Source: Solidesulfovibrio aerotolerans (GTDB lineage Bacteria > Desulfobacterota > Desulfovibrionia > Desulfovibrionales > Desulfovibrionaceae). Taken from it: a stretch of 64,000 bases of DNA. Location: NCBI RefSeq assembly GCF_009856865.1, contig NZ_WVUD01000001.1, forward strand, positions 248,001-312,000, written 5' to 3'. This document shows positions 19,931 to 40,909 of the stretch, in pieces (within the stretch, counting starts at the first letter, position 1; every line of letters begins with the position of its first letter). The position numbers and the translations under genes were made by a program. Below the pieces are notes generated by a model. It saw only the letters and a program-made list of their open reading frames with translations. It ran no database searches and was not told the origin of the DNA.

Positions 19931-20013
19931 TGTAAGCTCTGGTTTTTTCCGGTCCTCGACTGACCGGATTGTCAACCAGCCCCAAGAAACCCCTTTATAA
20001 ATTTCTTCCATTC

Positions 20014-20052
20014 GGGGGGTCCGGGGGGATCATCCCCCCGGCCGCCGGAGGC
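20014..20052 (-). repeat. GC-hairpin repeat R3', inverted copy, stem class A
   Basis: Plus strand GGGGGGTCCGG, stem around ATCAT, then GGCCGCCGGAGGC. Its GGAGG lies about 10 bases before the GTG start of the next gene and probably serves as that gene's ribosome binding site. Confidence 0.85.
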
Positions 20053-20061
20053 ATTCTTAAC

Positions 20062-22794
20062 GTGCAGAATCTCTTTAAAAAAATAAATCCTTGGCCCATT
20101 TTGCTCTTCCTGGTCGCCCTGGCCCTGCGCCTGTACGAACTGGGCGGGCCGTCCATGGCCTTTCATGATGAACTGACCACCCTGGCCCGCAGCCTGGAGC
20201 CGTCGTTTGCGGAGGTGCTGGCCGCAGCCATCAAGCAATTCCCACCGTTTATCGATTTCCAGCCGCCGCTGTATTATCTCGTGACCCATGGTGTTGTGGC
20301 CTTGGGCGGGCACGGCGATTTCTGGGTGCGGCTGCCGGCGGCATTGGCCGGTGCGGTCTGCGCGCCGCTATTATATTGGCTGGGACTGCGTCTGGGCGGG
20401 CCGGTTTGCGGCGTGTTTGCCGGCGCGGCCGTGGCTGTTAATTTGTACCACATTGATGTCAGCCAGCAGGTGCGCCTCTACGCCTTGTGGGGTGCATTGA
20501 CTTTGGCCGGGCTGCTGGCGCTCATGCGGGCGCTTAACGGCGGGCGGCGTCGGGACTGGGCTGTTTTCGCCCTGGCCTTGGCGGCCGGATTCTATACGTC
20601 GTATCTGGCCCTGGGCCTGCTGGTTTTGGCGGCGCTGCTAACGGCCTGGGCGCTGGCCGTGCCGGGCCGGGACGCACCGGCACGACGGCGCACGCTCTTA
20701 GGCTTTCTCGGGGCGTCGGCTGCGGCCGTGGCCGCTTTTTGGCCGTGGCTGGAGGTCACCAGCGGGGTGCGGGGCTATCTGCTGGACGCGGCCGTGCCGC
20801 TTCGCCCGCCGCTTTATGAGGCACTAACCACTGTTTTCGCGGCCTTTTCCAGCCATTACGCCACCGTTATCGGTCGCCCGGAACTGCCCTGGCTTATGGC
20901 CGGTGCGGCGGTCGCGGGGCTGCTGCTCGGGCTGGCCCGTGCGGCGCAGCGGCGCAGTGCGATCCTTGTTGCCGTCCTGTTTGTGGTCTTTTTCGGTCTG
21001 GCCTGGGGCCGGGCGAGTGCGGCCCATCCTTTTCAGGTGCGCTATGGGCTGCCGTGTCTGTTTGCCACGCTGTTGGCGGCCGGGCTGGGGCTGGCAGCTC
21101 TCGCCGACTGGCTGCGCCGGCGGGGAGTGGGCGCGGCCGCGGGCCAGGGACTGGCGCTGGTGCTGGGGCTGGCCCTGGCCGCGCCGAGTCTGCCGGTTGC
21201 CCCGTTTTTTTACCGCCGCGACGACAGCCGTTTAAAGACCCTGGCCGCTGCCTTGCGCGCCGCCGCCGGTCCGGCCACGTCCCTGGCCTTGTGGCGCGAG
21301 TCCGATCCCTGGCTGCGGCCGTATTTTGAGACCTTTGCCCGGTGGTATCTGCCGGGTGTGTTTTTGACGGCCCTGCCGGATGCTAGCCCGGCCGGCCGGC
21401 AGGCCCGGGATATGCTGCTGCTGGTTCCGGCCACGCCGGGAACGCCGCCCCCCGCCGGGGCCAGACTGGTCACGGCCCTGGCCGGGACAGAAATCTGGCA
21501 CAGCCCCGTGGCCAATGCCACGCCCCTGGTACCGTCGGATGGTTTTACGGCCCGGTTTGCCCCGGACGTGGCCTTTGCCGAACTGACCAGCAGCCGTAAT
21601 GTCCGGGCCACCGGCTCCTCGCTGGTTCTGGCCGAGAGCGTGCGCGCCGGCGAGGCTGTGTATGTGTTCACGCCCCAGCCCGGCCAACGCGTAGCCCTGA
21701 CCGGGCTGGAGTGGGATACCGAAACGGCCTCCTATCCCGGCCAGTCGCCGTCGGGCCGGGTCATTGCCCTGGTCGGTCCCGACGCCGAGCACCTGACGCC
21801 CTATGATTCCGACAGTCCGCCGCCGCCGGCCGAGTCGTTGATGCTGCGCCTGTATTTCCGGCCCGGCTACAGCCGTGGACCGCTGGCGCTCACCCGGCTC
21901 GATGCCCGTTTTGCCGTGTCCGGCGATCCCGGCCCGCCCGCTGCCGTGGCCGCCGAGCAGGCTCGTCGGCTGGCTGCCAATACCCAGATTGCGCCGTGTC
22001 CGGCCGGCACCATTTTTCCCGACCGCTATGTACTTGGGCCGGATGGCACAGTCTGTCCCGCCGTCGGCCGGCTGGCGTCGGACGCGTCCCTGACGCTGGC
22101 CAATGCCACGGCTGCCCCCCTGGCCGTCACCCGCCTGGACCTGACCGGCAATCCCGGCGGTGCGGCCGTGAGCCTGGGGGCCACACAGTTCCAGCTTCCC
22201 CTGGCCGGGCCGCAGCTTTTGACCGCCGCCCTGGTGCCGGGCGGCCCTGGCACGGTGCGGCTGGCCCCGCTGTATACCGACGCCGGCTTTAATCCCGACG
22301 CGGCGTTGCCCGGGGCCACGGCGGTCAAGCGGGCCGGCGAGCCGGTCCTCACCTGTCCCGATGCCAAACCCTGCGAAATCCTCTACGAACTGACCACCGG
22401 CTATCCGGCCAAACGCCTGGAGCTGACCTGGTTTCCGCGCCTTTTGGGCGATGCGGCCGGGCACAACAACGCCACGGCCGAAATTGCGGTGGGCGACGGG
22501 CCGTTTCAGAGTCTGGACAGCTTTTCCAGCCTGCAATCCGGGCGTTGGGACGGGCTTGGAGTGACGCGCCGGGCGGCCACAGCCCTTGGCGGGGCCACGG
22601 GCCGGATTCGGTTGCGCCTGCGGCTGGCCGGGGACGGGGCGCAATTGTGGTCGTCGCCGGAAACGCCCATGGCGCTCACCCTGGCCGTAGATACGGGCAG
22701 TCTGCCGCCTCTGGCCATTGCGCCCGGGACCACGCCCATGACCGCCGCCGCCCCCGGCCCGTGGGGCATCACCGTAGGCTTTGACACGCCGTGA
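20062..22794 (+). CDS. Membrane glycosyltransferase (GT39/ArnT-like) with periplasmic domain
   Basis: About 910 residues. Roughly the first 400 contain about ten membrane segments and an early FHDELTTLAR motif, matching the acidic first-loop site of GT39/ArnT-type enzymes that use polyprenyl-linked sugars. Residues about 415-910 are beta-rich and probably extracytoplasmic. The GTG start is preferred because GGAGG of repeat R3' lies about 10 bases upstream and the first membrane helix begins soon after. An upstream in-frame extension would be translated repeat. It follows the Wza/Wzz genes and likely modifies the exported polymer or a lipid carrier. Confidence 0.8.
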   Translation: MQNLFKKINPWPILLFLVALALRLYELGGPSMAFHDELTTLARSLEPSFAEVLAAAIKQFPPFIDFQPPLYYLVTHGVVALGGHGDFWVRLPAALAGAVCAPLLYWLGLRLGGPVCGVFAGAAVAVNLYHIDVSQQVRLYALWGALTLAGLLALMRALNGGRRRDWAVFALALAAGFYTSYLALGLLVLAALLTAWALAVPGRDAPARRRTLLGFLGASAAAVAAFWPWLEVTSGVRGYLLDAAVPLRPPLYEALTTVFAAFSSHYATVIGRPELPWLMAGAAVAGLLLGLARAAQRRSAILVAVLFVVFFGLAWGRASAAHPFQVRYGLPCLFATLLAAGLGLAALADWLRRRGVGAAAGQGLALVLGLALAAPSLPVAPFFYRRDDSRLKTLAAALRAAAGPATSLALWRESDPWLRPYFETFARWYLPGVFLTALPDASPAGRQARDMLLLVPATPGTPPPAGARLVTALAGTEIWHSPVANATPLVPSDGFTARFAPDVAFAELTSSRNVRATGSSLVLAESVRAGEAVYVFTPQPGQRVALTGLEWDTETASYPGQSPSGRVIALVGPDAEHLTPYDSDSPPPPAESLMLRLYFRPGYSRGPLALTRLDARFAVSGDPGPPAAVAAEQARRLAANTQIAPCPAGTIFPDRYVLGPDGTVCPAVGRLASDASLTLANATAAPLAVTRLDLTGNPGGAAVSLGATQFQLPLAGPQLLTAALVPGGPGTVRLAPLYTDAGFNPDAALPGATAVKRAGEPVLTCPDAKPCEILYELTTGYPAKRLELTWFPRLLGDAAGHNNATAEIAVGDGPFQSLDSFSSLQSGRWDGLGVTRRAATALGGATGRIRLRLRLAGDGAQLWSSPETPMALTLAVDTGSLPPLAIAPGTTPMTAAAPGPWGITVGFDTP

Positions 22795-27190: not shown

Positions 27191-28378
27191 TCAAGGGGGT
27201 CCGGGGGGGATTATCCCCCCCGGCCGCCGGAGGCCTCTTCTGCCTTCCCCCCTCTTGCGCCCGTCTACCGCCCGGCGGTAGGCGGTCAGGGCCAGGGTGA
27301 CGGCGTTGTTCCAGTCAAAGCCCGCTGCCCGCAGAAGGCCCCGGGCGGCCATGTCCCGGGCGAGGGGCGGGTCGGTCAGCACCCGGCACAGCGCGTCGGC
27401 AAGGCCGGCGGTGTCGTGGGGATTAACGAGCAGCGCGGCCCCCCCCGCCACTTCGGCCACGGCCGGGGCGGTTGAGGCAACCACCGGCGTGCCGCAGGCC
27501 ATGGCCTCAATCACCGGCAGGCCGAAGCCTTCGCCAAAGCTCGGATAGGCCAGCACTGCCGCGCCGGATAACAGCCCCGGCAGATCGGCCTGGGGCACGC
27601 CGCCGCAAAAGATGATTCCTTCCCCGCCGCCGCTTCCCCGTATCTGCGCGCCAAAGGCGGCAAACAGTCCGTCGTCGGGGCCGGCGATGACGAGCAACGG
27701 TGCCGCCGCGCCCAGTCGCGCCCGGAGCAGCCGATAGGCCGCAACCAGCCCTGGCAGATTTTTGCGCGGTTCGATACGCCCCAGCGACAGGATGTACGGG
27801 CTGTCGGGGATGCCCAGGCGCTCACGCAGACCGGCCAGGACGGGCGGGTCGGTGACCGGGGCAAAGGCGGCGTCCAGGCCGGAATGGACAAAGGCCACCC
27901 GCTCGGGGGCAACGCCGTAGCGGGCCATGATCTCGCTCCGGCAGTAGTCGGAAACGGTCAGCACCATGGCCGCCCGGCGGGCGCTGCGGGGATAGAGCAG
28001 CCGCATCAGGCTGGAGAGTCCCCGGGGAAAATACTGGGGCATGGTTTCGTGCAGGATGTCGTGGAGTGTAATGACGCAGGGGACCGTCGGGGTCAGCGGC
28101 GCCAGGTATTGGCAATGAAAGACATCCACTTCCCGGGCCAACCGCTGGGGAAAGGGGGCGATCAGCCGGCCGGTGCGGCCGGCGGGAATGGGGGCGAGCG
28201 TCACGTTGGGAGCACCGGCGGCCAGGGCCAGGGCAGCGGCGCGGCCGGGCTCGGTCACATAGAAGACAAACCGGATATCCGGTGCGGCAGCCGGCAAGCG
28301 GGCGGCCAGGGCGGCGATGTAGGTGCGCGAGCCCTGCATGATGCCGCCCAGGGTGTGCAGATCAAGACCTACCCGCAT
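27191..28378 (-). CDS. GT4-like glycosyltransferase
   Basis: 395 residues. Two Rossmann halves. The C-terminal half has LSLGRIEPRKN, the loop VLAYPSFGEGFGLPVIEAMA with the E-x7-E motif, and CGTPVVAS, as in retaining GT4 enzymes that use nucleotide sugars. The start MRVGLDLHTL begins the first beta strand and overlaps the upstream glycosyltransferase by 10 bases. The last 12 residues, RRPGGIIPPGPP, and the TGA stop come from repeat R5'. Normal family members would end about 20 residues earlier. Confidence 0.88.
   Translation of the reverse strand: MRVGLDLHTLGGIMQGSRTYIAALAARLPAAAPDIRFVFYVTEPGRAAALALAAGAPNVTLAPIPAGRTGRLIAPFPQRLAREVDVFHCQYLAPLTPTVPCVITLHDILHETMPQYFPRGLSSLMRLLYPRSARRAAMVLTVSDYCRSEIMARYGVAPERVAFVHSGLDAAFAPVTDPPVLAGLRERLGIPDSPYILSLGRIEPRKNLPGLVAAYRLLRARLGAAAPLLVIAGPDDGLFAAFGAQIRGSGGGEGIIFCGGVPQADLPGLLSGAAVLAYPSFGEGFGLPVIEAMACGTPVVASTAPAVAEVAGGAALLVNPHDTAGLADALCRVLTDPPLARDMAARGLLRAAGFDWNNAVTLALTAYRRAVDGRKRGEGRRGLRRPGGIIPPGPP
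27195..27234 (-). repeat. GC-hairpin repeat R5', inverted copy, stem class A
   Basis: Plus strand GGGGGTCCGG, stem around ATTAT, GGCCGCCGGAGGC, then pyrimidines. On the minus strand it encodes the C-terminal tail of the glycosyltransferase ending at 27191. The R5/R5' island shares its internal sequence with the R6/R6' island at 38801-39015. Confidence 0.85.
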
Positions 28379-29358
28379 CGTTTGGCGACCAGGGTTTGCA
28401 CCGTTGCGGCCAGGGCCAGCCCCAGCCCGGCGGCAAAGGCCAGGGAGCGGCCGAGAATGAAGAGCGGGGCCAGGACGGCCACGGGCCGGTCGCGGGGGGC
28501 GGCGAAGCGGACAAAAGGGATGGTGGTGGCGAAAAGGGCGGCCAGGGACAGGCCGGAAAGTGCTGCGCCGAGGCTGGTCAGCGGCAGGGCGGCCAGCCCC
28601 AGGCCGAAGCCGCCGGCCAGGACGGTCTGGACCCGGATGACCGGCGGGGTGTAGCCGTCGCACACCAGTTTCTGGGGATGGTCGCGGCAGGCCCGAAAGC
28701 GCCAGAAGGCCCGGCGCAGCTTGATGCGCAGATAGCGGGCGAGGGTTGCCGGGTGGCGGTGGTAGACGATGGCGGCCGGGGCGAAAACCAGCCGATGGCC
28801 GGCGGCGGCCAGGCGGTAGGACAGTTCGGTGTCCTCGTTGTCAGCCACGCAAAAGGACGTATCAAACCCGCCGGCCGCGTCGAACACGGTTTTGCGGTAG
28901 GCGGCGGCATAGGTGGCCACCAGATCGATGGTCGGGCGGCGGGCCACGAAGGCGTAGCGGTCGGCAAATTCGAGCTGGGCAAAGCGGGCGACAAGCGTGG
29001 TCTGGCGGGTGCGGTAGGCTCCCTGGACCCCGGCCACGGTGGGATCGGCCAGGGGGGCGAGGATGTTCTCCAAAAACTCTGGGGCCGGGGCACAGTCGGC
29101 GTCGGTGAAAACGACAACATCGCAGTCGGAGGCGGCCGCCCCGGCGTTTCGGGCCGCGGCCGGCCCGGCGTTGGCCTGCCGGATGACCGTCGCGCCCAGG
29201 CGCTCGGCCAGGGCGGCGGTGTCGTCGGTTGACCCGTCGTCCACCACAATAACGGCAAACCGGTCGCGACCGATGGTCTGGGTGGCCAGCGCCGTCAGGG
29301 TGTCGGCCAGGGTGCCGGCGGCGTTATAGGCCGGGATGACGACGGTTACGCGGGGCAT
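28369..29358 (-). CDS. GT2-family glycosyltransferase
   Basis: 329 residues. Family 2 signatures: VVIPAYNAAGTL, VDDGSTD, FTDADCAP (DxD-like) and a later DNEDTELSYRL. C-terminal hydrophobic segments (about 245-325) suggest membrane association. The ATG is preceded only by a C run, with no Shine-Dalgarno sequence, but it lies inside the end of hicB (13-base overlap), so translation may be coupled to the antitoxin gene. It overlaps the next glycosyltransferase by 10 bases. Confidence 0.88.
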   Translation of the reverse strand: MPRVTVVIPAYNAAGTLADTLTALATQTIGRDRFAVIVVDDGSTDDTAALAERLGATVIRQANAGPAAARNAGAAASDCDVVVFTDADCAPAPEFLENILAPLADPTVAGVQGAYRTRQTTLVARFAQLEFADRYAFVARRPTIDLVATYAAAYRKTVFDAAGGFDTSFCVADNEDTELSYRLAAAGHRLVFAPAAIVYHRHPATLARYLRIKLRRAFWRFRACRDHPQKLVCDGYTPPVIRVQTVLAGGFGLGLAALPLTSLGAALSGLSLAALFATTIPFVRFAAPRDRPVAVLAPLFILGRSLAFAAGLGLALAATVQTLVAKRCG

Positions 29359-29816
29359 GGGGGGGGAGGTGCCAGCCCGACGGCCGGGTCATTTTTAGGA
29401 TGCAGATCAAAATCCAGGCGAAATCCCAGGACGTCGGCGGCGTCCATAAGCTGGGCCACAGTGGATTGGTGGTCGAGATCCAGCAGCCGGCGCACTTGCC
29501 TGGCGTCGCAGTGGAGCAGTTCGGCCAGTCTGAGTTGGGATATGCCCTGGTCGCGCATGGCCTGATAGAGGCCGAGCTTGACCGCGACCAGCGGTGACGG
29601 GGCCAGGGCGAGCTGTCCCGGCGCAGGGCTTGAGGGTGCGGGGATGTCACGGCGTTCGTCCATGTAGCCGGCCAGGGCCACGTGCAGGGCGTCTTGCCCC
29701 CATTTGAGGGCAATGGCGGCCGATGCGCCACAGGTGATGGCCTCGGGCAGGTCGGGAAAGGCGGCCATGACGTCGCCGTTATCCAGGGGCGTCAGCGTGA
29801 CGGGATAGTCATACAT
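29346..29816 (-). CDS. hicB: HicB-family antitoxin
   Basis: 156 residues. N-terminal HicB fold (YPVTLTPLDNGDVMAAFPDLP, then ALHVALAGYMDERRDIP). The C-terminal part has a helix-turn-helix-like segment AMRDQGISQLRLAELL for DNA binding. It neutralises HicA and usually represses its own operon. GGAGG precedes the ATG. It lies 15 bases after hicA, and its 3' end overlaps the GT2 gene by 13 bases, which is unusual for a self-contained toxin-antitoxin pair. Confidence 0.9.
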   Translation of the reverse strand: MYDYPVTLTPLDNGDVMAAFPDLPEAITCGASAAIALKWGQDALHVALAGYMDERRDIPAPSSPAPGQLALAPSPLVAVKLGLYQAMRDQGISQLRLAELLHCDARQVRRLLDLDHQSTVAQLMDAADVLGFRLDFDLHPKNDPAVGLAPPPPCPA

Positions 29817-30084: not shown

Positions 30085-31557
30085 TCACACCCGCGACCCG
30101 CGCAGCAGATGTTTGATGAAGACGCGCCCCGCGCGCACGGTACGGGCCATTTCGCCGGGACTAATAAGGGCTGCCGCCAGCCGGCGCAGGAGGAATGTGG
30201 GGCGCAGATAAAAGCGTTTGCGGGCCAGATCGCACAATTGCACGATTTCGGTGGGCCGCAGAGAGGCATTTCGCACCACGCAGCCGTGCAGCCCCTCGGG
30301 GGTCAGCCAGTCGCGCCAGCGCCCGGCGGCGATAAAGCCGCGCTCTTTATAGTCGGCATACGCTTCGGTGCCGGGATAGACCATCACCGGATAAAACTGG
30401 GCCGTGTCGGGATTAAGCTTGAGCGCAAAGTCGATGGTGGCCAGGATCGATTCCCGGGTATCGTCCGGGAAGCCGAAAATAAAGCAGCCGTGGACCTTGA
30501 TGCCGGCTTTGGCCGCATCGGCCCGAAACCGGCCCATGCGCTCGGCACCCAGGCCTTTCTTCATGTTGGCCAGGGCAGCCGGATCGGCAGACTCAAACCC
30601 CACGCAGACTTGCCGGCAGCCGGCCCGGCGCATATTGGCCAGGGCGTCGGCGTCGAGATCGGCCCGGGCATTGGCCGACCATTCAAAGACCAGCCCCCGG
30701 CGCACGATAGCGGCGCAAAATTCCCGCAATCGGGCCTTGTCGGCTGTGAGTGTGTCATCCTCGAAAAAGATGGTGCGCAGGCCCGGGAAGTTGTCCAGGC
30801 ACCAGGCCACTTCATCGAGGACGAGGTCTACGGAGCGGCAGCGCGCCGCCCGGCCGGTGAGGGTTTGCGGGTGCAGGCAAAACGAACAGCGGTAGGGACA
30901 GCCGCGCGAGGTGGCCAGGGTCACCATGGGCGGCTTGGCGTTGGGGTTGAAATAGTGGCGGATGTCCAGATGGCGCTTATAGACCGGAGCCACCGGCGGC
31001 AGGGCGTCGAGGTTTTCGATATACGGCCGGTCGGCGTTGTGGGTGACCGTGCCGGCCGCGTCCACAAAGGACAGGCCGGCAACCGTGGCCAGCCGCTCTG
31101 GCGTGGCCGGTCCCGACTCCAGCAGCCGGGCCAGTTCAAGGACGGTCGCCTCGTATTCGCGCCGGGCCACGGCAGTAACGGCTCCCGGTTTGGCGGTCAG
31201 GACCTCTTCGGCCCGGGCCGTGGCATGGGGACCGACCAGCACGGTAAAAAGGCCCGGCACGGCCCGGGTCAGGGCCAGGGCGGCCTGTATGTCCGCGTCG
31301 ATGCTGGGGGTGGAGGTGTCAAGGACGGCCAGGAAAGGCTTTTCGGCCACGGCGCGTTGCACAACGGCGGCCAGATCGAGGCCGGCGGCCGGGGCATCCA
31401 GGAAGGTCACGTCGTAGTTGTCGGCCTCCAAAACGGCGGTCAACTGGGCCAGAAACAGCGGGAAATAGAGTGTTCCGCTCTTGGTCACGGCCGGAGAACG
31501 CTGGGGCCGGGAGAATTTGGGCAAAAAGGGCGCGTTGAGAACGAATATAGCGGCCAT
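30085..31557 (-). CDS. B12-binding radical SAM protein
   Basis: 490 residues. N-terminal cobalamin-binding-like domain (about 1-150) and radical SAM core with C220-x3-C224-x2-C227 in SRGCPYRCSFC. The DNA-proximal start MAAIFVLNAPFLPKF has AAGGA five to six bases upstream. The TLYFPLFLAQ and LDAPA segments resemble enzymes acting on lipid or hopanoid-type substrates, but this is weak evidence. It is the last gene of the six-gene cluster that begins with an acyl-AMP ligase, with a 187-base gap after the acyltransferase gene. Confidence 0.85.
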   Translation of the reverse strand: MAAIFVLNAPFLPKFSRPQRSPAVTKSGTLYFPLFLAQLTAVLEADNYDVTFLDAPAAGLDLAAVVQRAVAEKPFLAVLDTSTPSIDADIQAALALTRAVPGLFTVLVGPHATARAEEVLTAKPGAVTAVARREYEATVLELARLLESGPATPERLATVAGLSFVDAAGTVTHNADRPYIENLDALPPVAPVYKRHLDIRHYFNPNAKPPMVTLATSRGCPYRCSFCLHPQTLTGRAARCRSVDLVLDEVAWCLDNFPGLRTIFFEDDTLTADKARLREFCAAIVRRGLVFEWSANARADLDADALANMRRAGCRQVCVGFESADPAALANMKKGLGAERMGRFRADAAKAGIKVHGCFIFGFPDDTRESILATIDFALKLNPDTAQFYPVMVYPGTEAYADYKERGFIAAGRWRDWLTPEGLHGCVVRNASLRPTEIVQLCDLARKRFYLRPTFLLRRLAAALISPGEMARTVRAGRVFIKHLLRGSRV

Positions 31558-31744
31558 GGGCTTCCTTTGGGCAGGGTAGAGGGGCGAAAGGCCCAGGAAG
31601 CCGTGGCTTCCAGGTCGGCCAGCCGACGTTTCAGGGTGCCCGGACGCGTTAGCAGAGCGGTTGGCACAAAGCCAGCCCGACCCTGCGTCCGGCAACGCTT
31701 CTTGGGGTCTGGGAAACGGATTGTGGCCGAGACGAGGCCCGGAT

Positions 31745-32692
31745 TCAAGGAAAAACATGGGCCTCCAGGCCGTGCCACCAGCCCGGCGCGGCCACGACCC
31801 GGGCGGCGTAGGCGGCCGCCCAGGCTTCGGTCATGGCCAGGGCGGCGGCATCGCGCCCGCGCTCGGCTGCTGCGCCGGCACCAACGGAGGACGGGGGCGG
31901 GCTGATCGGTCCCTCGATCACGAGGCGGTAGGGCGAAACGGTGCCGGCCTCCAGAAAGACCGGCAGCAGGACAGCCCCTGTGGCCAGGGCCAGCCGGGCC
32001 GGTCCCAGGGGCACCGACAACGGGCCGCCCGGGAAATCAACCACGGCGTGGCGGCCAAAGGGTGGCTGCCCCGGCCCGTCGTCGGCAGTGGTCATGACGA
32101 TGCCGCCGGCCCGCAGATGGGCCAAAGCTTGCCGCGTGCCGGGGCCGGGCGGCACGATGCGGGCCGGGATACGCCCTTCGTAGCGCGCCCGCAGGCGGAA
32201 GGCGACATGTTTGCCTATAAAGGAAAGTCCGGCGTCGGACAAATGGCCGATCTGGAGCATGGGAAAGCCCAGCGCTCCCAGGGCAGCCAGGGGAAGCTGG
32301 GTGGGGCCGAAGTGCCCCAGGGGCAGGACCACGCCGCGCCCGTGGCCCCGGGCGGCTTCCAGGCGGCTGAGACCGGTTATTTCAATGAGTTGATTTATGT
32401 TTTCACATGTCAGTCTGGGTAAATTGAAGACGAGCAGCTGGTTGACGTAGTGGGTGGCAAAGGCGTCGGCCACGGCTTGGGCCTGGGCCGGCGGGGTCAG
32501 CCCAGGTGCCACCCGGCGAACGGCCTGGGCGATGCGCCCGGTCCGGCCCCGGGAAAGGCGTTGGTGCAGCCGGCCCATGGCGCGATAGAGGGCCAGGGCC
32601 GCGCCAAAGGGCAGGCGTTCGGCCACCAGACGCAGGGGATACCAGACGAGCAGGCGCAGCAGATCGCGCCCGGGATTCTCCCCGACGCGCAC
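31745..32692 (-). CDS. LpxL/HtrB-like acyltransferase
   Basis: 315 residues with the fold order of late acyltransferases of lipid A synthesis: N-terminal hydrophobic segment, GVVLPLGHFGPTQLP, a later TADDGPG, then FPGGPLSVPLGPARLALATGAVLLPVF. The usual catalytic H-x4-D/E reads H-F-G-P-T-Q, i.e. H-x4-Q. The GTG start follows the upstream TAA by one base (TAAC then GTG) and has GGGGA nearby, so the genes are coupled. The same H-x4-Q change occurs in the protein at 39020-40009. Likely transfers an acyl chain to an envelope lipid. Confidence 0.78.
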   Translation of the reverse strand: MRVGENPGRDLLRLLVWYPLRLVAERLPFGAALALYRAMGRLHQRLSRGRTGRIAQAVRRVAPGLTPPAQAQAVADAFATHYVNQLLVFNLPRLTCENINQLIEITGLSRLEAARGHGRGVVLPLGHFGPTQLPLAALGALGFPMLQIGHLSDAGLSFIGKHVAFRLRARYEGRIPARIVPPGPGTRQALAHLRAGGIVMTTADDGPGQPPFGRHAVVDFPGGPLSVPLGPARLALATGAVLLPVFLEAGTVSPYRLVIEGPISPPPSSVGAGAAAERGRDAAALAMTEAWAAAYAARVVAAPGWWHGLEAHVFP

Positions 32693-32693
32693 G

Positions 32694-33986
32694 TTATTTC
32701 CCCGCCGCCCGCAGGAGCAGGTCAAGGCATTTGTCGATGTAGGCGGTCTTTGTCTGGCTGTACAGGATCGGCTCCAGGAGATCGGTGTCCGGGGTGATCA
32801 GGCCTTGTTCCAGGGCGATTTCGGCCAGGGCGGTGTGCGGTTCGACCCGGATGGCGTTAAGCTCGAAATGCGCTCTTTTTCCCATTTCGCGCCGGGCTTT
32901 GAAAATGAACCGCAGCATAGACAGGGCCGCTGCCAGCGTCTGGCCGGGCGGGTTTTTAAAAAAATTGTAGCTGACGTCAAAGCAGCCCATATCACGGACC
33001 AGGGCGTAGGCGGCCTTGATTTCGGCCACGCTTGAGGCTTTGCCCAGGCGCTTTAAGGCTGTGTCGCCAAAGGCGTCCGGGGAGAAAATGACCGTGTCGC
33101 AGCCGGCCCGGCGGGCCAGTTGCAAAAACTCGCGGGTCAGTCCCCGTTCGGCAAACCAGGCCGACCAGGGCAGGGTGGCCTCGGCCGCGATCATGGCTTT
33201 CATGACGGCCGTGGCGTGATCCGACGGGAAATTAAAGACCGAATCGAGAAAGGTGAACCGCTTGGCGCCGTGGACGTCGCGCAAGGCGATGATCTCGGCC
33301 GCCACCTGCTCCGGGGCCTTGGCGCGATACCGCCGGCCGTTTAAAAACCCGTACGGGCAATAGACGCAGGAAAGGGCGCAGCCGCGTTTGGTCTCGACGC
33401 CAATGCCCCACGGCACGGCCAGATAGGGGGCCAGGGGCAGGAGGGCGAAATCCGGGGACGGCAGCGCCGACAAATCAATCTTTCCCGCTTCGCCGGTATA
33501 AAACGCCGCCCCGGTGGCGTCCCGGCCATAGAGCGACGGCACGGCCGCCGGCGACACCCCCCGGGCCAGGGCGTCGGCCAGCCCGGCAAAAACGATTTCC
33601 CCTTCCAGGGCAACGCCAAAGTCGATGGCCGGATAGGCAGCCATGATGGCCGGGGCGAACATGGAAAAGCCGGCTCCGCCCACAGCCACGGGGCCGGCCG
33701 TCTCCCGGCGCACGGCCTCCAGGGTGGCGGCAAAGGGCGGCAGATAGGAGACGTTGACCCGGGTGTTGGTGGAATCAATGTTTCGCAGGGAAATGCCGGT
33801 CAGTTCTGGCGAAAAATCGCGCAGAAAGCGCGCCAGCCCGGCCATGGGATCAGCCCCGGCCACGTTGGGATCAAAGGCCCGGACCTCGTGCCCCGGCAGG
33901 CTGGCGGCCAGGGAGGCCAAACCAATGGGAAAGACCGGCTCTCCGGCTCCCTGGCCGAGCCAGGATTGGACCAGCGCGATTCTCAT
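32694..33986 (-). CDS. B12-binding radical SAM protein
   Basis: 430 residues. The N-terminal B12-binding-like region starts MRIALVQSWLGQG. The radical SAM motif is C203-x3-C207-x2-C210 in KRGCALSCVYC, with PYG following. The C-terminal region is helical and basic. The ATG overlaps the stop of the upstream radical SAM gene by four bases (ATGA), and the TAA stop is one base from the acyltransferase GTG. It is diverged from the other three radical SAM proteins in the window. Substrate unknown. Confidence 0.85.
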   Translation of the reverse strand: MRIALVQSWLGQGAGEPVFPIGLASLAASLPGHEVRAFDPNVAGADPMAGLARFLRDFSPELTGISLRNIDSTNTRVNVSYLPPFAATLEAVRRETAGPVAVGGAGFSMFAPAIMAAYPAIDFGVALEGEIVFAGLADALARGVSPAAVPSLYGRDATGAAFYTGEAGKIDLSALPSPDFALLPLAPYLAVPWGIGVETKRGCALSCVYCPYGFLNGRRYRAKAPEQVAAEIIALRDVHGAKRFTFLDSVFNFPSDHATAVMKAMIAAEATLPWSAWFAERGLTREFLQLARRAGCDTVIFSPDAFGDTALKRLGKASSVAEIKAAYALVRDMGCFDVSYNFFKNPPGQTLAAALSMLRFIFKARREMGKRAHFELNAIRVEPHTALAEIALEQGLITPDTDLLEPILYSQTKTAYIDKCLDLLLRAAGK

Positions 33987-35494
33987 GCCCGGCCCGACAC
34001 CCGGCGCAGCAGCCGTTTGGCCGGTCCCATGAGGGCAAAAAGCCCCTGCCACAGCGGGTTAAATAGCGGCCGGACCAGCACCCCGGCCACGGCGTCGCTG
34101 GCGAGTAGAGCCAGCAGCCGGGACGGCATGCGCCCGCCCTTGGCCAGAAGGATCAGCAGATTGATATAATCAGGCCGGCGCATGGTGTAGGACTTGGTAT
34201 ACACTTGGCGGCGCTCATCGGTCAGGAAGCCGTCGGCAGCGGCCATGGCATGGAGCTTGGTGCCGGGATACAGGACCAGGGAAAACGGCTGGAGCCGAAA
34301 CGGTTTGGGAATCTGGGCAATAAAGCGCACCGATTCCAGCCGGTCGGCCGTGGTTTCATACGGCGTGTCCAGGATGAAATCGTAACTGGGGGGAAACATG
34401 CGGTCCTTGGAGGCGTTTATGATGCGCATGGCGGCCAGCATGACCTCGTTGCCCATGGCCTGACGATTAAAAAGCTTCTGGATGCGCGGCGAGCCGGTCT
34501 GTACGCCCATTTGCAGGTAAAACAGGCCGGCGTCGAGCAGGGCGTCCATTTTCTCCCGGCTGATGGTGGCCGGCGAGCCGAGACAGCTAAACGGCAACCC
34601 GATGCGCGTCTTCCACTGCCGGCAAAACTCCACAATATCGGCCAGGGGCCTGGCGAAAAAGGCGTCGTCGGAGATCCAGACATAGCCGATGTCGGGCAGG
34701 ATGCGCCGCACCGTCTCGATTTCGGCCAGCACATGGTCCGTGCCACGCCAGCGCAGATAGCCCTTGGCCCCGTAGAGCGCCTTTATGGCGTCGTTGACGC
34801 AGTAGGCGCAGCGGTGGGGGCAGCCCCGGCCGGTCATGGTCTGGTAGCCGATCTTGCCGAGCAGCAGCGACACCGTGCCCCGGGCCAGGATAGCTTCTGT
34901 GGCGGCCGGGGTCAGCGGCACGACACCGGCCAGCGGGTTTTGGCTGTCCCAAATATGGTGGTCCTCATGGGACCAGTCCGGGGCCGGCAGGGCGTCGAGA
35001 TTTTGGGTCAGCGGCCGCACCGCGTTGCGGGCCATGGTCCCGTCTGTGCGCCGCGCCTGGATGTTGGCAATGGTGGTCAGGTCGCCGTCGGCCTCGATGG
35101 CCCGCACCACGTCCAGGATGGCTTCCTCGCCATCGCCCACGCAGACCAGATCGGCCAGCTCCAGGCACTCCTCGGGCCGGATGGTGGGATGCACCCCGCC
35201 CCACAGCACCGGCACGCCCGTTTTCGCCTTGACCGCCCGGGTGATCTGCACCGCATTGTCCACGTAGTTGGTCATAAGCGACACGCCGACGAGGTCGCAA
35301 TCGGCGCACAAGGCCGCTGTCTGCTCCATGACGGCGGCAGGATAGCGCTCGGGACAATCGGTCAGAGCGTCGCCGAGTGGATCGGGCAGAAAAATCAAGC
35401 GCACGGCCACGCCGTTGGCCTTTAAAAAGGCGGCAATGGCGCGCACGCCGTAGGCGGTAATGTCGGGATAGGGCGAAATGAGGGCTACGCGCAT
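33983..35494 (-). CDS. B12-binding radical SAM protein, paralogue of 977-2575
   Basis: 503 residues. B12-binding-like domain from MRVALISPYPDITAYGVRA to WGGVHPTIRP; radical SAM cluster C225-x3-C229-x2-C232 in GRGCPHRCAYC; MGVQTGSP and a C-terminal domain shared with the solo protein at 977-2575. AAGGA lies 11 bases before the ATG. It is followed by a second radical SAM gene with a four-base overlap. Its place between a DUF362 gene and the acyltransferase points to a multi-step pathway. Confidence 0.86.
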   Translation of the reverse strand: MRVALISPYPDITAYGVRAIAAFLKANGVAVRLIFLPDPLGDALTDCPERYPAAVMEQTAALCADCDLVGVSLMTNYVDNAVQITRAVKAKTGVPVLWGGVHPTIRPEECLELADLVCVGDGEEAILDVVRAIEADGDLTTIANIQARRTDGTMARNAVRPLTQNLDALPAPDWSHEDHHIWDSQNPLAGVVPLTPAATEAILARGTVSLLLGKIGYQTMTGRGCPHRCAYCVNDAIKALYGAKGYLRWRGTDHVLAEIETVRRILPDIGYVWISDDAFFARPLADIVEFCRQWKTRIGLPFSCLGSPATISREKMDALLDAGLFYLQMGVQTGSPRIQKLFNRQAMGNEVMLAAMRIINASKDRMFPPSYDFILDTPYETTADRLESVRFIAQIPKPFRLQPFSLVLYPGTKLHAMAAADGFLTDERRQVYTKSYTMRRPDYINLLILLAKGGRMPSRLLALLASDAVAGVLVRPLFNPLWQGLFALMGPAKRLLRRVSGRA

Positions 35495-35530
35495 GGCCGG
35501 TATGTCCTTTTGGTGGGGCAACGTGTTGGC

Positions 35531-36751
35531 CTACAGGCCGTAGCGCGTTTTGTACGCCTTGTAAAAGTCCAGAATGTGCGGCGGACAGCCGGGCACATGT
35601 TGGGCGATGGAGCCGGGCTTTTTGGTATTAAAGACCAACGGTGCGCTACACGCCCCAAAGCACCAAAGTTCGCCGCGCACATTACGGATGTTGGCCATTT
35701 CCGGCATGGGTACGCCGACGTAAAGCGACACCGGGTCACGCCCGTCCAAAAGCCCCTCGCTGCCAAGCTTGTCAAGCGCATGGCGCAAGGCCGACAGACA
35801 CCCCTGGCAGGCCCCGCCTTCCACCACCCGCACGGCCGGATACGCCCCCATGGAGCTTAAGATCGGGCGCACGAACTGCCGCCGGCAGCGGGCCGGATCG
35901 TCGCCCACCACGTCGATGGCGGCCGGATCCGTTTCGCCCAGCCCCTCCTGGCCGGCCAGCCGCAGCATGGCCACCTCCTGCGGGGCAATGCCCATCAGAT
36001 CGGTGCAGACCGTGTCCACGGCGCACACGTCGGTCCCGGCCACGATGACGTTCATGTCCGGCAGGCTCGACCCGGACAGCGGGGCCTGGCCCTGCACCGC
36101 CCACAACCCGTCCACCACGGTCAGATGGGGCCGTACCACCCGCAGGATATCGATAATCTTGATATTGATATCGTTGCGGTGCCAGGGCATGCGGTTGTCA
36201 TCCAAAATAAGGCCGTACTGGTTTTTGATGCCAAGGGTCACCAGCGTATGCACATGGGTCTTTAATTTGGGGATGTTGATATAGACGTCGGACTCCAGCA
36301 GCACGCGCGGCAGGGGCACCGGGTCGAAGAGCAAGGCCGTTGGATTGGGAACCAGCACCGGGTCGGCGGCGTCAAAGTAGACCAGCTCCCCCCCCTCGGC
36401 GGCCAGCCGGGAGGTAAAGCGGTCCAGGCCGCGCAGGGCTTCGCCCAAGGGCAGGCCGTAGCCCGGATTGTCGCCCACGCGCACCACCGTCGCCCCAGCC
36501 TGGCGCACCAGCCGCACCATGGCCAGGATCACCCGCTCGTCAGTGACCACCGAGCGGGGATTGTGCGGATTGGGGCGCACCAGATTGGGCTTTAAAAGCA
36601 CCGTTTTGCCACGCACAAGCGTCGCCAGATCGCAGCAACCGGCCACGGCCCGGGAAACCAAGGCAACGACAGCGGCAAGGCCCGCGTCGGTATAGGCGTC
36701 CGGGGCCTCGCCGATCAGGGCGTGGGCGAGTCCGACACAAGGGCGCGCCAT
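35531..36751 (-). CDS. DUF362-family protein
   Basis: 406 residues matching the DUF362 pattern: VLLKPNLVRP near residue 55, VGDNPGYG, IPKLKTHVHTLVTLGIKN near 165, then a VVDGLWA segment. The C-terminal part has clustered Cys (GGACQGC, CFGAC, VPGCPP) that could bind an iron-sulfur cluster. The family's function is not settled. GGAGG lies nine bases before the ATG; the gene start overlaps the ligase end by 37 bases, so the two are co-translated. Confidence 0.82.
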   Translation of the reverse strand: MARPCVGLAHALIGEAPDAYTDAGLAAVVALVSRAVAGCCDLATLVRGKTVLLKPNLVRPNPHNPRSVVTDERVILAMVRLVRQAGATVVRVGDNPGYGLPLGEALRGLDRFTSRLAAEGGELVYFDAADPVLVPNPTALLFDPVPLPRVLLESDVYINIPKLKTHVHTLVTLGIKNQYGLILDDNRMPWHRNDINIKIIDILRVVRPHLTVVDGLWAVQGQAPLSGSSLPDMNVIVAGTDVCAVDTVCTDLMGIAPQEVAMLRLAGQEGLGETDPAAIDVVGDDPARCRRQFVRPILSSMGAYPAVRVVEGGACQGCLSALRHALDKLGSEGLLDGRDPVSLYVGVPMPEMANIRNVRGELWCFGACSAPLVFNTKKPGSIAQHVPGCPPHILDFYKAYKTRYGL

Positions 36752-38238
36752 GCGATTTTTCCTCCAGGGGTTCGGGGCAGCGCGTCGCGGATTTCAATGA
36801 CGCGCGGCATTTTAAGCCGATGCAGACGGGTTTGCAGGAACCGGCGCAGCCCGGCCGTGGTCAGCACCGCCCCATTGCGCGGGGCAACGACCGCCTTGGC
36901 CGCTTCGCCGCGCAGATCGTCGGCAAACGGAATAACCACCGCCTCGGCCACGTCCGGGTGCTGGCGCAAGGCTTCTTCGATTTCCACCGGAAAGACCTTC
37001 ATGCCCCCGACTTTAAGGAGCATGGATTGGCGGCCGGCAAAATAAAACCGGCCCGACCCGTCGCGATAGATTTCGTCGCCGGTGCGAAACCGGCCGCCGT
37101 GCAGGCGGTATTGCGCCTGGGAGGCTTCGCCAAAATACCCCGGGCACACGCCGGGGCCGGAAACGACCAGTTCGCCGGGTTCACCGTCGGCACACGGCTG
37201 CCCGTCCTCGCGCAAGACCTGGACGTCATAGCCGGCTGCCGGTCGCCCCAGGCAGCACGGGGTATAGGGATCGCCAGGACGGTTGGCCAGGGCCACGCCC
37301 GTGGTTTCGGTGCTGCCCCAGACCGGCAGGATGGCCGTCCCGTAACGCCGCAGCAAGCCTGTTGCCAGGGCCGAGGGCACATGCATGCCCCCGGATTCCG
37401 CCACCCGCACCGTGGCCAGCGGATTGGCCGAGCCGGCCGGCAGACGCAACAGCGTTTCATAGATGGCGGCCACAGCCATAAGCGCCGTGACCTTGTGTTC
37501 GATGCAGGCCGCTGCCACAGCCCGGGCCGAAACCCGGTCGCACAGCACCATGGTTCCGCCCAGATACAGCGGGCGCAGCAGGATCTCGTGGGGATGCACG
37601 AAAATCGGCATCATGCACAAATGCACGTCATCCGGGACAAGGCCAAACGCGTCCACAGCCGCCCGGGTGTTGGCCAGCAGATTGCCAAGGGTCGTCACCG
37701 CCCCCTTGGGCGCGCCGGTGGTGCCGGAGGTGAAATTTAAATAGACCGCGTCGTCCCGGCCGACCGTGGGCAGCCGGGCCGGCAGGGGGCCGGTGCACAG
37801 ATCGTTTATATGGGGCAGCCCCGGCGGGGCCGGTCCGTCGCACACGAGCAGGGCAAAGGGTGGTGCGGCCGGATACAGCGTGTTGATGACGGGCAGGAAT
37901 TCGGCGGCCACAACCATGACGACCGGGGCCAGCCGGGCCAGGATGTCGCGGGTCACAGCCGCCGGCTGGTTGGGATCGACCGGAAAAAAAACACCGCCGG
38001 CTGCGGCCGTGGCCAGAAAGGCCGTCACTGCCGCCGGTGTCTTGCGCGAAAAAACAGCCAGCCGCGCTCCAGGGACCAGTCCCAGCTCGAAAAGGCCGCC
38101 AGCCAGCCGCAACACCGCTTCGGCCAAAGCCGCATGGGTCACAACGGCTTCGCCGGCCGCGATGGCCACGCCGTCTCCACGTTCTGCGGCGTTGCGGCGC
38201 AGCATGTCCGCCAAAGTCATACAGGCAGCGTCAGCCAT
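36715..38238 (-). CDS. Acyl-CoA synthetase/AMP-dependent acid ligase
   Basis: 507 residues. ANL-superfamily motifs in order: NFTSGTTGAPKGAV (P-loop), WGSTETTG, TGDEIYRDG and a C-terminal TPGGKIAW Lys. It activates a carboxylic acid as acyl-AMP and passes it to CoA or a carrier; no acyl carrier protein gene is seen nearby. AGGAGG is four to five bases before the ATG. It is the first gene of the six-gene minus-strand cluster and would supply the activated acid for it (inference). Confidence 0.88.
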   Translation of the reverse strand: MADAACMTLADMLRRNAAERGDGVAIAAGEAVVTHAALAEAVLRLAGGLFELGLVPGARLAVFSRKTPAAVTAFLATAAAGGVFFPVDPNQPAAVTRDILARLAPVVMVVAAEFLPVINTLYPAAPPFALLVCDGPAPPGLPHINDLCTGPLPARLPTVGRDDAVYLNFTSGTTGAPKGAVTTLGNLLANTRAAVDAFGLVPDDVHLCMMPIFVHPHEILLRPLYLGGTMVLCDRVSARAVAAACIEHKVTALMAVAAIYETLLRLPAGSANPLATVRVAESGGMHVPSALATGLLRRYGTAILPVWGSTETTGVALANRPGDPYTPCCLGRPAAGYDVQVLREDGQPCADGEPGELVVSGPGVCPGYFGEASQAQYRLHGGRFRTGDEIYRDGSGRFYFAGRQSMLLKVGGMKVFPVEIEEALRQHPDVAEAVVIPFADDLRGEAAKAVVAPRNGAVLTTAGLRRFLQTRLHRLKMPRVIEIRDALPRTPGGKIAWRALVSDSPTP

Positions 38239-39019: not shown

Positions 39020-40009
39020 TTATGCCTCTTCTCTCTCTTCTGCCGCTTCACTAAAAAAAGCGTCATGGCCGGCGGCGGCCATGTGCAGGCGAAAGGCCAG
39101 GAAATAGAGGTAGGGGCTGGGATTGGCGATGATGGCTGCCGACAGCCGGGCGGCGGCGGCGGCGGTATTGCGTGTGGCCGCGTCGTCGGCCGAAAGCCCG
39201 TCCTCGCCGGGTCGGACCAGGGGCAGGGCCGGTTCGAGGCGCAGTGTCAGCCGCCCGTTTTGGGCCCGTTCCATAAAGCACGGCACCACGGCGCAGCCGG
39301 TTTTGCCGGCCAGCAGCATGGGGCCGAGGGAAAAATAGGCATGCCGGCCCAGAAACGGCACGAGCGCCCGCTTTTCGCCGCCACCGCCGTCCAGGGCCAC
39401 GCCCAGGACGTGGCCGGCGCGCAGACAGGAAAACGCTCCCTTTAAGCTGCCGAACACATCGATATGTTTGACCGGCAGGGTTTGTTCGTGGGCCCAGCGC
39501 AGTTCCCGGGTGCGGCGCACGGCTGCGGGGCGCGCTTCGGGCAGCTTTTCGTTTAAGACCGTGGCCGGGGCCGAGAGCTGGCACATGGTGTAGCCGGCGT
39601 GGCCAATCGCCGCCATAATCATCTGATTGGCCCCGTAGTGGCCAAAGACCAGCATGGCTCCGCGCCCGGCGGCCAAGGCGGCGTCCAGATGCTCCTGGCC
39701 GCTTACGCCGGCCATGGCGGCGGTGCGTGCCGGGGTCAGGGTCGGAAAGAGCAGCACTTCCAGGTCGTTCTGGCAAAATTCCACCAGCGCCTGCTGGGCC
39801 AGGGCCAGGCGCGTTGCCGGGTCGTCCGGCACGCCGGGCACAACGCGGGCCGCTGCCGCCATACCGTCACGCCGGGCGTTTCGCACGCGGCCAAGGGCAT
39901 GCCCCAGCCCCCGGGCCAGGGCGCGGCCTGCCGCCGGCGGCAGGGCCTGCACGACTCTTTTAAACGGATGCCAATAGACCCAGACCAGGGCGTCGCGCAG
40001 TGCTTGCAT
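39020..40009 (-). CDS. Second LpxL-like acyltransferase
   Basis: 329 residues. The family block GAMLVFGHYGANQMIMAAIG carries H-x4-Q where lipid A acyltransferases have H-x4-D/E. Later VLGVALDGGGGEKRALVPFLGR and FSLGPMLLAGKTGCAVVP match the second half of the fold. The ATG is 12-13 bases from a GGAGG supplied by the inverse strand of repeat R7. It is not part of the six-gene cluster but is a probable functional relative of the enzyme at 31745-32692. Confidence 0.75.
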   Translation of the reverse strand: MQALRDALVWVYWHPFKRVVQALPPAAGRALARGLGHALGRVRNARRDGMAAAARVVPGVPDDPATRLALAQQALVEFCQNDLEVLLFPTLTPARTAAMAGVSGQEHLDAALAAGRGAMLVFGHYGANQMIMAAIGHAGYTMCQLSAPATVLNEKLPEARPAAVRRTRELRWAHEQTLPVKHIDVFGSLKGAFSCLRAGHVLGVALDGGGGEKRALVPFLGRHAYFSLGPMLLAGKTGCAVVPCFMERAQNGRLTLRLEPALPLVRPGEDGLSADDAATRNTAAAAARLSAAIIANPSPYLYFLAFRLHMAAAGHDAFFSEAAEEREEA

Positions 40010-40162: not shown

Positions 40163-40909
40163 CTACCGCGACATGAGCGCGAACACACCCCAGCCCAGGT
40201 ATGCACGGGTGTAGGTGGCGTAGCGTCGGGGTGCCGAGGTCAGTTCGGCTCGAACCTCTTTCGCGAAGGCATCGTCGGGATTCGTTTCGAGCCAGCGGCG
40301 CATCGTGAGCCACTTGGCGGCCTCGTACCTGTCCCAGCCGTCTTGGTTTGCCAGAACCATTTCCACAACGTCGTAGTCGAGGTTGTCCAAAGACGCGAGA
40401 AGTTCTGGAAGCAAGAGAAAGTCTGCGATGGAACCGGCGTGGCATCCCTTGGCGATCTCTTCTGTCGGCGGCACTTGCAGCCAATAGGGCTCGCCGATGA
40501 GGATGATGCCTCCCGTGCAAAGACTCTTGGCCAGAAGTTCTATGGTTCCGACGATTCCCCCACCGATCCAGGTGGCACCGACACAGGCTGCCACACCGAC
40601 CTTTTCGTCGGCGACGTAGCCGGCAGCATCTGCGTGGATGAACGCGACCCGATCGGCGACGCCGAGTGCGTCAGCCCGGCGTTTCGCTTGTTCGGTGAAT
40701 AGTTGGCTCATGTCGATACCAGCGCCGCTGATTCCGTAATCGCGTGCCCAGGTACACAGCATCTCGCCCGAACCGCTGCCGAGGTCGAGCACGCGGGTCC
40801 CTGGTTCCAAACGCAAGGCCGCGCCGAGCGTGGCGAGCTTTTCTGGTGTGAATGGATTATGGATGCGATGCGCACTTTCGGAAATGGTGAATATCCGGGG
40901 AATGTCCAC
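40163..40909 (-). CDS. Class I SAM-dependent methyltransferase
   Basis: 248 residues. SAM-binding motif I VLDLGSGSGEM, then an acidic residue in GAGIDMS and an FIHADAAGY segment. C-terminal part is helix-rich. GTG start with AAGGAG eight bases upstream. Codon use is more mixed (many non-GCC/CTG codons, more A/T) than in neighbours, which suggests recent acquisition. It lies between the acyltransferase and an MCP gene and may methylate a lipid-like product; the acceptor is unknown. Confidence 0.82.
   Translation of the reverse strand: MDIPRIFTISESAHRIHNPFTPEKLATLGAALRLEPGTRVLDLGSGSGEMLCTWARDYGISGAGIDMSQLFTEQAKRRADALGVADRVAFIHADAAGYVADEKVGVAACVGATWIGGGIVGTIELLAKSLCTGGIILIGEPYWLQVPPTEEIAKGCHAGSIADFLLLPELLASLDNLDYDVVEMVLANQDGWDRYEAAKWLTMRRWLETNPDDAFAKEVRAELTSAPRRYATYTRAYLGWGVFALMSR

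Follow-up and report, generated by a model that had tools for sequence, protein, structure and literature searches.

A stretch of 64,000 nucleotides from the genome of Solidesulfovibrio aerotolerans (contig NZ_WVUD01000001.1, positions 248,001 to 312,000; hereafter the window) carries six genes that may well be central to the anaerobic synthesis of a cell-envelope glycoconjugate that is acylated and exported, its sugar and its acyl or lipid part both being altered by B12 radical chemistry. The genes are all on the minus strand, from position 38238 down to 30085, and code for an AMP-forming acyl ligase (AMPlig), a DUF362 protein, two B12-binding radical SAM enzymes (RS1 and RS2), an acyltransferase (AT), and a third B12-binding radical SAM enzyme (RS3). 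The six open frames were confirmed as real, and the coordinates, families, and joints given for them in an earlier sequence-only reading were borne out by the open reading frame list, Pfam, and the measured gaps (-37, +36, -4, +1, and +187 bases, in order from AMPlig). Their GC content is 0.64 to 0.71, with 0.65 for the window, and thus offers no hint that the genes were recently acquired from a foreign source. That reading had missed other members: beyond position 30085 the run extends to two glycosyltransferases, GT2 and then GT4, while a fourth B12 radical SAM gene (RS4) and a second LpxL-like gene (LpxL2) are found elsewhere in the window. Genomes compared are designated by G numbers, G000 being that of the window, and genome stretches taken for comparison by L numbers.

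We surveyed 198 relatives from 78 genera for RS1, RS3, DUF362, LpxL2, and a control gene. The limit was preset at E 1e-60 for RS1, RS3, and the control; those for DUF362 (E < 1e-100, the next match being at 2.7e-48) and LpxL2 (E < 1e-60) were chosen after the scores had been seen, and the latter excludes G043 (1.3e-34), G002 (2.9e-27, at the site of its AT), and G185 (1.3e-17). RS1 was found in 18 relatives, RS3 in 19, DUF362 in 15, and LpxL2 in 17. The complete quartet was present in 14 of the 198, and 177 had no member of it, leaving seven genomes with partial sets: G002 and G006 (69 and 89% complete), G043, G059, G098, G184, and G187. The four are therefore inherited together, even though they lie apart in several genomes. 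At E 1e-60, LpxL2 occurs in 17 of the 18 RS1 genomes and in no other relative, and DUF362 orthologues are confined to 12 of the 14 Solidesulfovibrio genomes plus G028, G043, and G067. Since P values ignore relatedness, counts by genus were added. RS1 and LpxL2 occupy the identical four of 78 genera (p = 7e-7), and every genus with RS1 (four, p = 2.5e-5) or with DUF362 (three, p = 4.6e-4) also has RS3. Two of the three DUF362 genera have RS1 as well (p = 0.006). As a control we used a gene from G000 itself for a TIGR04072-type B12 radical SAM enzyme; it is present in 28 of the 198 relatives and showed no association with any of the four (p = 0.57 to 0.87 by genus). LpxL-family matches number two per genome in six of eight genomes with the set and three and four in the other two; none was found in any of three Desulfovibrionaceae checked that do not have the set.

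The arrangement of these genes varies within Solidesulfovibrio. AMPlig-DUF362-RS1-RS2-AT is contiguous in G000, G005, G007, G008, G012, and G013, and in all of these but the window a further family 2 glycosyltransferase (GT2b) follows AT, resembling polyprenyl-phosphate-sugar synthases with scores below the cutoffs. G003 and G009 hold the five genes plus RS4, RS3, GT2, and GT4 within ca. 18 kb in a different order, and in G004 the group RS1-RS2-AT-GT2b-epimerase-HldE-RS4 is ca. 460 kb from RS3-GT2-GT4 and AMPlig-DUF362. In the other genomes of the genus, too, the blocks are reordered or separated. The six-gene cluster is thus one of several ways in which three or four stable blocks are put together, the separable ones being AMPlig-DUF362, RS1-RS2-AT, and RS3-GT2-GT4. 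AMPlig is directly adjacent to DUF362 in 14 of the 15 DUF362 genomes, and in the remaining one (G001) both are present on different contigs. Conservation of gene order, which the sequence-only reading had set as a test, therefore holds for the blocks but not for the order of the six genes as a whole.

Parts of the set also recur in other families. A search of 395 genomes drawn from the phylum gave RS2 matches at E < 1e-70 in nine (G000, G426, G529, G466, G098, G187, G362, G538, and G294), a group whose limit is arbitrary, the next match being at 5.7e-68 in G293. RS1 adjoins RS2 in G426, G529, G466, G098, G187, and G362 and lies ca. 6 kb off in G538; none was seen in the examined stretch of G294. 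AT or LpxL2 matches were found in all eight stretches from the RS2-bearing genomes other than G000. Also recurrent there, though not all in each, are RS4, a family 9 glycosyltransferase (GT9), RS3, GT2, a flavin adenine dinucleotide (FAD) oxidoreductase, a SPASM radical SAM protein, a type I phosphodiesterase (PDE), a flippase, an outer-membrane polysaccharide export protein (OPX), and DUF362b, another kind of DUF362 protein that carries a ferredoxin-like domain. RS4 adjoins RS1 in G028, G098, G426, G466, and G187, and G529 has an RS1/RS4-like copy. DUF362b adjoins RS3 in G426, G466, and G187 and is a candidate electron donor for it. In G028 the genes fall into three loci: flippase-PDE with SPASM-LpxL2-RS4-RS1-RS2-AT-GT4, RS3-GT2 beside OPX-Wzc, and FAD oxidoreductase-DUF362b-AMPlig-DUF362. 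A sugar-phosphate transferase is present in the G098 stretch, and HldE-type genes (so called from PfkB plus cytidylyltransferase domains in the one copy scanned) and an epimerase-like gene are found near RS1 or RS4 in G001, G004, G009, and G010.

RS1 to RS4 belong to the B12-dependent radical SAM superfamily, each with a B12-binding domain and a CxxxCxxC radical SAM domain, and their activity is predicted from sequence. The three cysteines are invariant in 16 of 16 aligned sequences for RS1, 18 of 18 for RS2, 14 rows from 10 genomes for RS3 (four genes being counted twice from overlapping stretches), and 13 rows for RS4 (one of them an RS1 sequence, L056 7553-9055). RS3 matches the structure of AprD4 (6fd2) at E 8e-25. 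In G028 and G067, which are of one genus, RS3 and GT2 form a single frame of 842 and 840 amino acids, respectively, with a single terminal stop, tying an HpnJ/AprD4-like enzyme to sugar chemistry. GT2 and GT4 are themselves fused in G005, G007, and G008. The gap between RS3 and GT2 is 2 to 163 bases in the eight other Solidesulfovibrio genomes with both genes in the stretches taken (G001, G003, G004, G005, G007, G008, G009, and G010), and in the window the two are separated by a frame (29346-29816) that we take to be HicB-like. The proposal that the six genes serve one pathway is supported in part, by the co-inheritance of some of the genes even when they are not neighbors, the recurrence of RS1-RS2, LpxL-like, RS4, and RS3-GT2 genes in other families, and the fusions; it is weakest for AMPlig-DUF362.

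What is observed comprises the genes with their families, the joint inheritance of RS1, RS3, DUF362, and LpxL2, the fusions, and neighbors of the export type. The LpxL-family counts and the neighboring genes of the glycosyltransferase, flippase, PDE, OPX, Wzc-like, and HldE types lead us to favor an exported acylated glycoconjugate. The earlier suggestion of an unusual lipid or acylated metabolite is retained insofar as acyl transfer is likely, but the recurrent glycosyltransferases, phosphodiesterase, flippase, and export genes point to a glycoconjugate that leaves the cell. In the proposed pathway, GT2 and GT4 (and GT9 in other families) would assemble a glycan on a lipid carrier, and RS3, physically coupled to GT2, would rearrange or deoxygenate the sugar added by GT2. 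AMPlig, with the probable Fe-S protein DUF362, would activate and perhaps reduce an acid, possibly derived from shikimate; AT and LpxL2 would move acyl groups onto the glycan; and RS1, RS4, and RS2 would act on the acyl or lipid part by methylation or by joining carbon. Completion and export of the product would fall to the flippase, PDE, OPX, and Wzc-like proteins. A more specific version, which we consider improbable, is a new class of envelope glycoconjugate. A B12 radical SAM enzyme coupled to a glycosyltransferase would convert its sugar, while on the carrier, to a carbocycle or deoxy sugar, much as HpnI-HpnJ do but without a hopanoid; the acyl part would be modified at carbon by the three further B12 radical SAM enzymes, the acid would be activated by AMPlig-DUF362, and DUF362 would be an Fe-S redox enzyme of a type that has so far been given no function. 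We found no description of the gene set in the literature searched, most subscription journals being beyond that search. If correct, the proposal would mean that sulfate reducers can make envelope glycans with heavy modifications by a strictly anaerobic route, would place four B12 radical SAM enzymes and the DUF362 protein in a shared and testable context, and would predict that a radical enzyme fused to its own glycosyltransferase modifies sugar.

Several observations weigh against the proposal. The stretches taken from the eight other genomes with RS2 do not contain DUF362 itself, and ligase-like genes are found in two of them, the G098 copy being devoid of the HPHE motif. A DUF362 orthologue is missing from G098 and G187, although both have RS1, RS3, and LpxL2, and in G043 RS3 occurs in the absence of RS1. 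AMPlig-DUF362 sits with shikimate genes, away from the radical SAM block, in G028, G067, and G043. The PDE, flippase, OPX, Wzc-like, and PMT_2 genes are of common families, are linked to the set by neighborhood only, and in Solidesulfovibrio are often away from the six genes. A structure model of DUF362 built from four sequences reached a mean predicted local distance difference test score of 48.2 and was left unused. We infer every reaction, substrate, and product of the pathway.

The closest known likeness for RS3 is the HpnI-HpnK-HpnJ pathway to bacteriohopanetetrol cyclitol ether, which also has a GT2 glycosyltransferase and a radical SAM enzyme that works on the transferred sugar. In a passage on this pathway HpnJ is described as acting last, after the glycosyltransferase HpnI and the deacetylase HpnK (PMC12583986). 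Among NCBIfam models RS3 matches HpnJ best, but the score is 364.4 bits against a cutoff of 577.6, and GT2 reaches 33 of the 310 bits of HpnI. No protein of G000 exceeded the HpnJ cutoff, and squalene-hopene cyclase (PF13243) gave no match in G000 and was present in 2 of 14 control genomes. The HpnJ model weakly matched all 14 controls, so low-scoring matches mean little. The hopanoid cyclitol pathway was rejected because RS3 falls below the equivalog cutoff and no squalene-hopene cyclase match was found.

Among the alternatives, a modification of lipopolysaccharide fares best, although we hold it improbable. The LpxL-like pair and the GT9 and HldE-type proteins would then act on lipid A and the inner core, and the radical enzymes would alter lipid A sugars or acyl chains, with no separate polymer. 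Two enzymes of the LpxL superfamily, a GT9 that resembles heptosyltransferases (below their cutoffs), the HldE-type genes that four Solidesulfovibrio genomes have close to the set, and the failure of the three relatives without the set to give any LpxL-family match are consistent with it. HX4(D/E) is the catalytic motif of LpxL enzymes. AT and LpxL2 share with LpxL/LpxM and PatA the PF03279 superfamily and the conserved histidine, but the acid of the motif is replaced by Gln or His in 15 of 15 AT sequences and by Gln in 10 of 10 LpxL2 sequences, for which reason neither was assigned to the LpxL/LpxM lipid A acyltransferases. The best NCBIfam match of AT, far below cutoff, is a phosphatidylinositol mannoside acyltransferase, which also argues against lipid A, as do the OPX, Wzc, and flippase genes that neighbor the set in relatives. 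These last genes recall Wzx/Wzy-type exopolysaccharide loci, since flippase, OPX, Wzc-like, glycosyltransferase, and (in G098) sugar-phosphate transferase genes share stretches with the set in some genomes. To our knowledge, such loci do not usually include four B12 radical SAM enzymes, DUF362, an acyl ligase, and two LpxL-like acyltransferases.

The product could instead be free, either an unusual lipid or acylated small metabolite, as the sequence-only reading suggested, or a hydrocarbon, and the set akin to ladderane-type clusters; this we consider rather unlikely. The set does hold an acyl ligase and acyltransferases, and of the NCBIfam models TIGR04072 ranks first for RS4 and second for RS2. 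It is also accompanied in relatives by FAD oxidoreductases that are distant relatives of phytoene desaturase, and a passage on candidate ladderane clusters lists two phytoene desaturase-related FAD oxidoreductases among their genes (PMC2649909). However, with a TIGR04072 cutoff of 360 bits, RS2 scored 213.8, RS3 91.6, RS4 88.4, and RS1 82, while a positive control in G000 scored 553.7, and the 21 proteins of the window that were scanned with Pfam yielded no ketosynthase or carrier-protein domain. A TIGR04072/ladderane-type cluster was rejected on these grounds, and the claim of the sequence-only reading that the locus is not a standard polyketide synthase or ladderane locus holds as far as tested. 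The type II fatty acid synthesis clusters of this type resemble the window set in bringing together a B12 radical SAM enzyme, an acyl ligase, an LpxL-like acyltransferase, and a GT2, and differ in distribution, the two showing no association. Glycan genes, moreover, recur around the window set. G000 has a cluster of the genuine kind elsewhere, at L112 (contig C99, 2745-14534), with ketosynthase, ketosynthase-like, carrier-size, 4-coumarate-ligase-like, LpxL-like, and GT2-like genes beside the genuine TIGR04072 enzyme of 553.7 bits, the gene for which is scattered among relatives (28 of 198).

The AMPlig pocket region keeps HPHE, ESGG, and WGSTETTG in all 15 sequences aligned, of which 11 are of Solidesulfovibrio and the other 4 of G028, G067, G293, and G294, and the shared HPHE and ESGG suggest that these ligases probably use similar acids. 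An attempt to read the substrate from the pocket was unsuccessful, as the motifs match no nameable specificity. In DUF362, residues C315, C318, C364, C368, C389, and H392 are present in 15 of 15 aligned rows, one of which is a fragment, with a CPPH near the C-terminal end. We take this pattern to recall the Fe-S sites of the hydrogenase small subunit/NuoB type. A PDB search with DUF362 gave chance matches only. One published passage describes Fe-S motifs nested in DUF362 (PMC7955657) and another places DUF362 as an outgroup to the lactate racemases within the same clan (PMC11770544), neither passage assigning a function.

In G028 and G067 and in G043, AMPlig-DUF362 is followed by a chorismate mutase-3-deoxy-D-arabino-heptulosonate 7-phosphate (DAHP) synthase and a dehydroquinate synthase (AroB scores of 321.7 bits in G028 and 333.1 in G043 for a cutoff of 305, the G067 copy being unscored), and in G293 the ligase is followed by a chorismate mutase-DAHP synthase. 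These neighbors in three other genera hint that the ligase acid might come from the shikimate pathway, which we suggest only tentatively. In L045 (6468-12907) and L046 (6310-12720), from two Desulfovibrionaceae genera, DUF362b, AMPlig, DUF362, chorismate mutase-DAHP synthase, and AroB are consecutive. PF01761 matches were found in 31 of 119 genomes of the family, comprising all 15 with DUF362 and 16 others. A link between DUF362 and 3-dehydroquinate synthase was dropped for Solidesulfovibrio, since the one hit that was scanned, from G000, proved to be an EboD-type gene and the sites in G004 and G010 look alike; AroB-type genes stand beside AMPlig-DUF362 only in G028, G067, and G043. The EboD-type, dehydroquinate-synthase-like gene of G000 lies beside EboE at L121 (contig C84, 7861-10143). 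A shikimate-fed cofactor or benzenoid pathway akin to the BzaD step of cobamide lower-ligand synthesis, to which these neighbors and the best NCBIfam model for RS2 (BzaD, 247.3 bits) might point, is very unlikely, because RS2 is under the BzaD cutoff of 450 and was rejected as such an enzyme, the acyltransferases, glycosyltransferases, and fusions would be left unexplained, and the AroB-like hit of G000 is the EboD-type gene on another contig.

Table 1. Genes of the set and their probable partners in the window
Gene	Product	Position	Strand	Basis and remarks
AMPlig	AMP-forming acyl ligase	36715-38238	-	Pfam AMP-binding, 224 bits, plus C-terminal domain
DUF362	DUF362 protein, probable Fe-S protein	35531-36751	-	Pfam PF04015, 141 bits
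RS1	B12-binding radical SAM enzyme	33983-35494	-	Pfam B12-binding and Radical_SAM
RS2	B12-binding radical SAM enzyme	32694-33986	-	Pfam B12-binding and Radical_SAM
AT	LpxL/PatA-superfamily acyltransferase	31745-32692	-	GTG start; Lip_A_acyltrans PF03279, 39 bits (cutoff 22)
RS3	B12-binding radical SAM enzyme, HpnJ/AprD4-like	30085-31557	-	Pfam B12-binding and Radical_SAM
GT2	Glycosyltransferase family 2	28369-29358	-	Pfam, 110 bits; downstream of RS3 in relatives
GT4	Glycosyltransferase family 4	27191-28378	-	Pfam, 99 bits; fused to GT2 in G005, G007, and G008
LpxL2	Second LpxL-like acyltransferase	39020-40009	-	PF03279, 67 bits
RS4	B12-binding radical SAM enzyme, RS1 paralogue	977-2575	+	Pfam
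CheX-like	CheX-like protein	390-974	+	Weak PF13690 match, 27.9 bits
PDE	Type I phosphodiesterase, probable partner	11161-12789	-	Pfam, 133 bits
Flippase	Wzx-type flippase, probable partner	12780-14201	-	Pfam Polysacc_synt, 36 bits
OPX	Outer-membrane polysaccharide export protein, probable partner	16686-17543	+	Pfam Poly_export, 75 bits
Wzc-like	Wzc-like chain-length protein, probable partner	17545-19794	+	No Pfam match; weak NCBIfam matches
PMT_2	GT-C (PMT_2) glycosyltransferase, probable partner	19969-22794	+	Pfam, 39 bits

The probable partners in the window (Table 1) have counterparts near the set in relatives. PDE homologues are found in the stretches taken from G028, G098, G294, G529, and G293, and flippase homologues in those of G028, G098, G538, and G294, the copies of the last two with 25% identity. 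OPX adjoins RS3-GT2 in G028 and G067, where the Wzc-like gene adjoins both, and an RS1-like gene in G187. PMT_2 homologues adjoin RS3 in G004 and GT2-GT4 in G007 and lie near RS4 in G008. The CheX-like gene is adjacent to, or one gene from, RS1 or RS4 in G001, G003, G004, G008, G009, and G010.

Between LpxL2 and a chemotaxis receptor, the window also codes for a methyltransferase (40163-40909) that is a distant relative of CMAS/cyclopropane synthase; its GC content is lower (0.61), and it had no match in the stretches taken from relatives. Near the polysaccharide genes of this sulfate reducer there is an ATP sulfurylase fused to an adenosine 5'-phosphosulfate kinase (9403-11094), which could supply 3'-phosphoadenosine 5'-phosphosulfate for polysaccharide sulfation.

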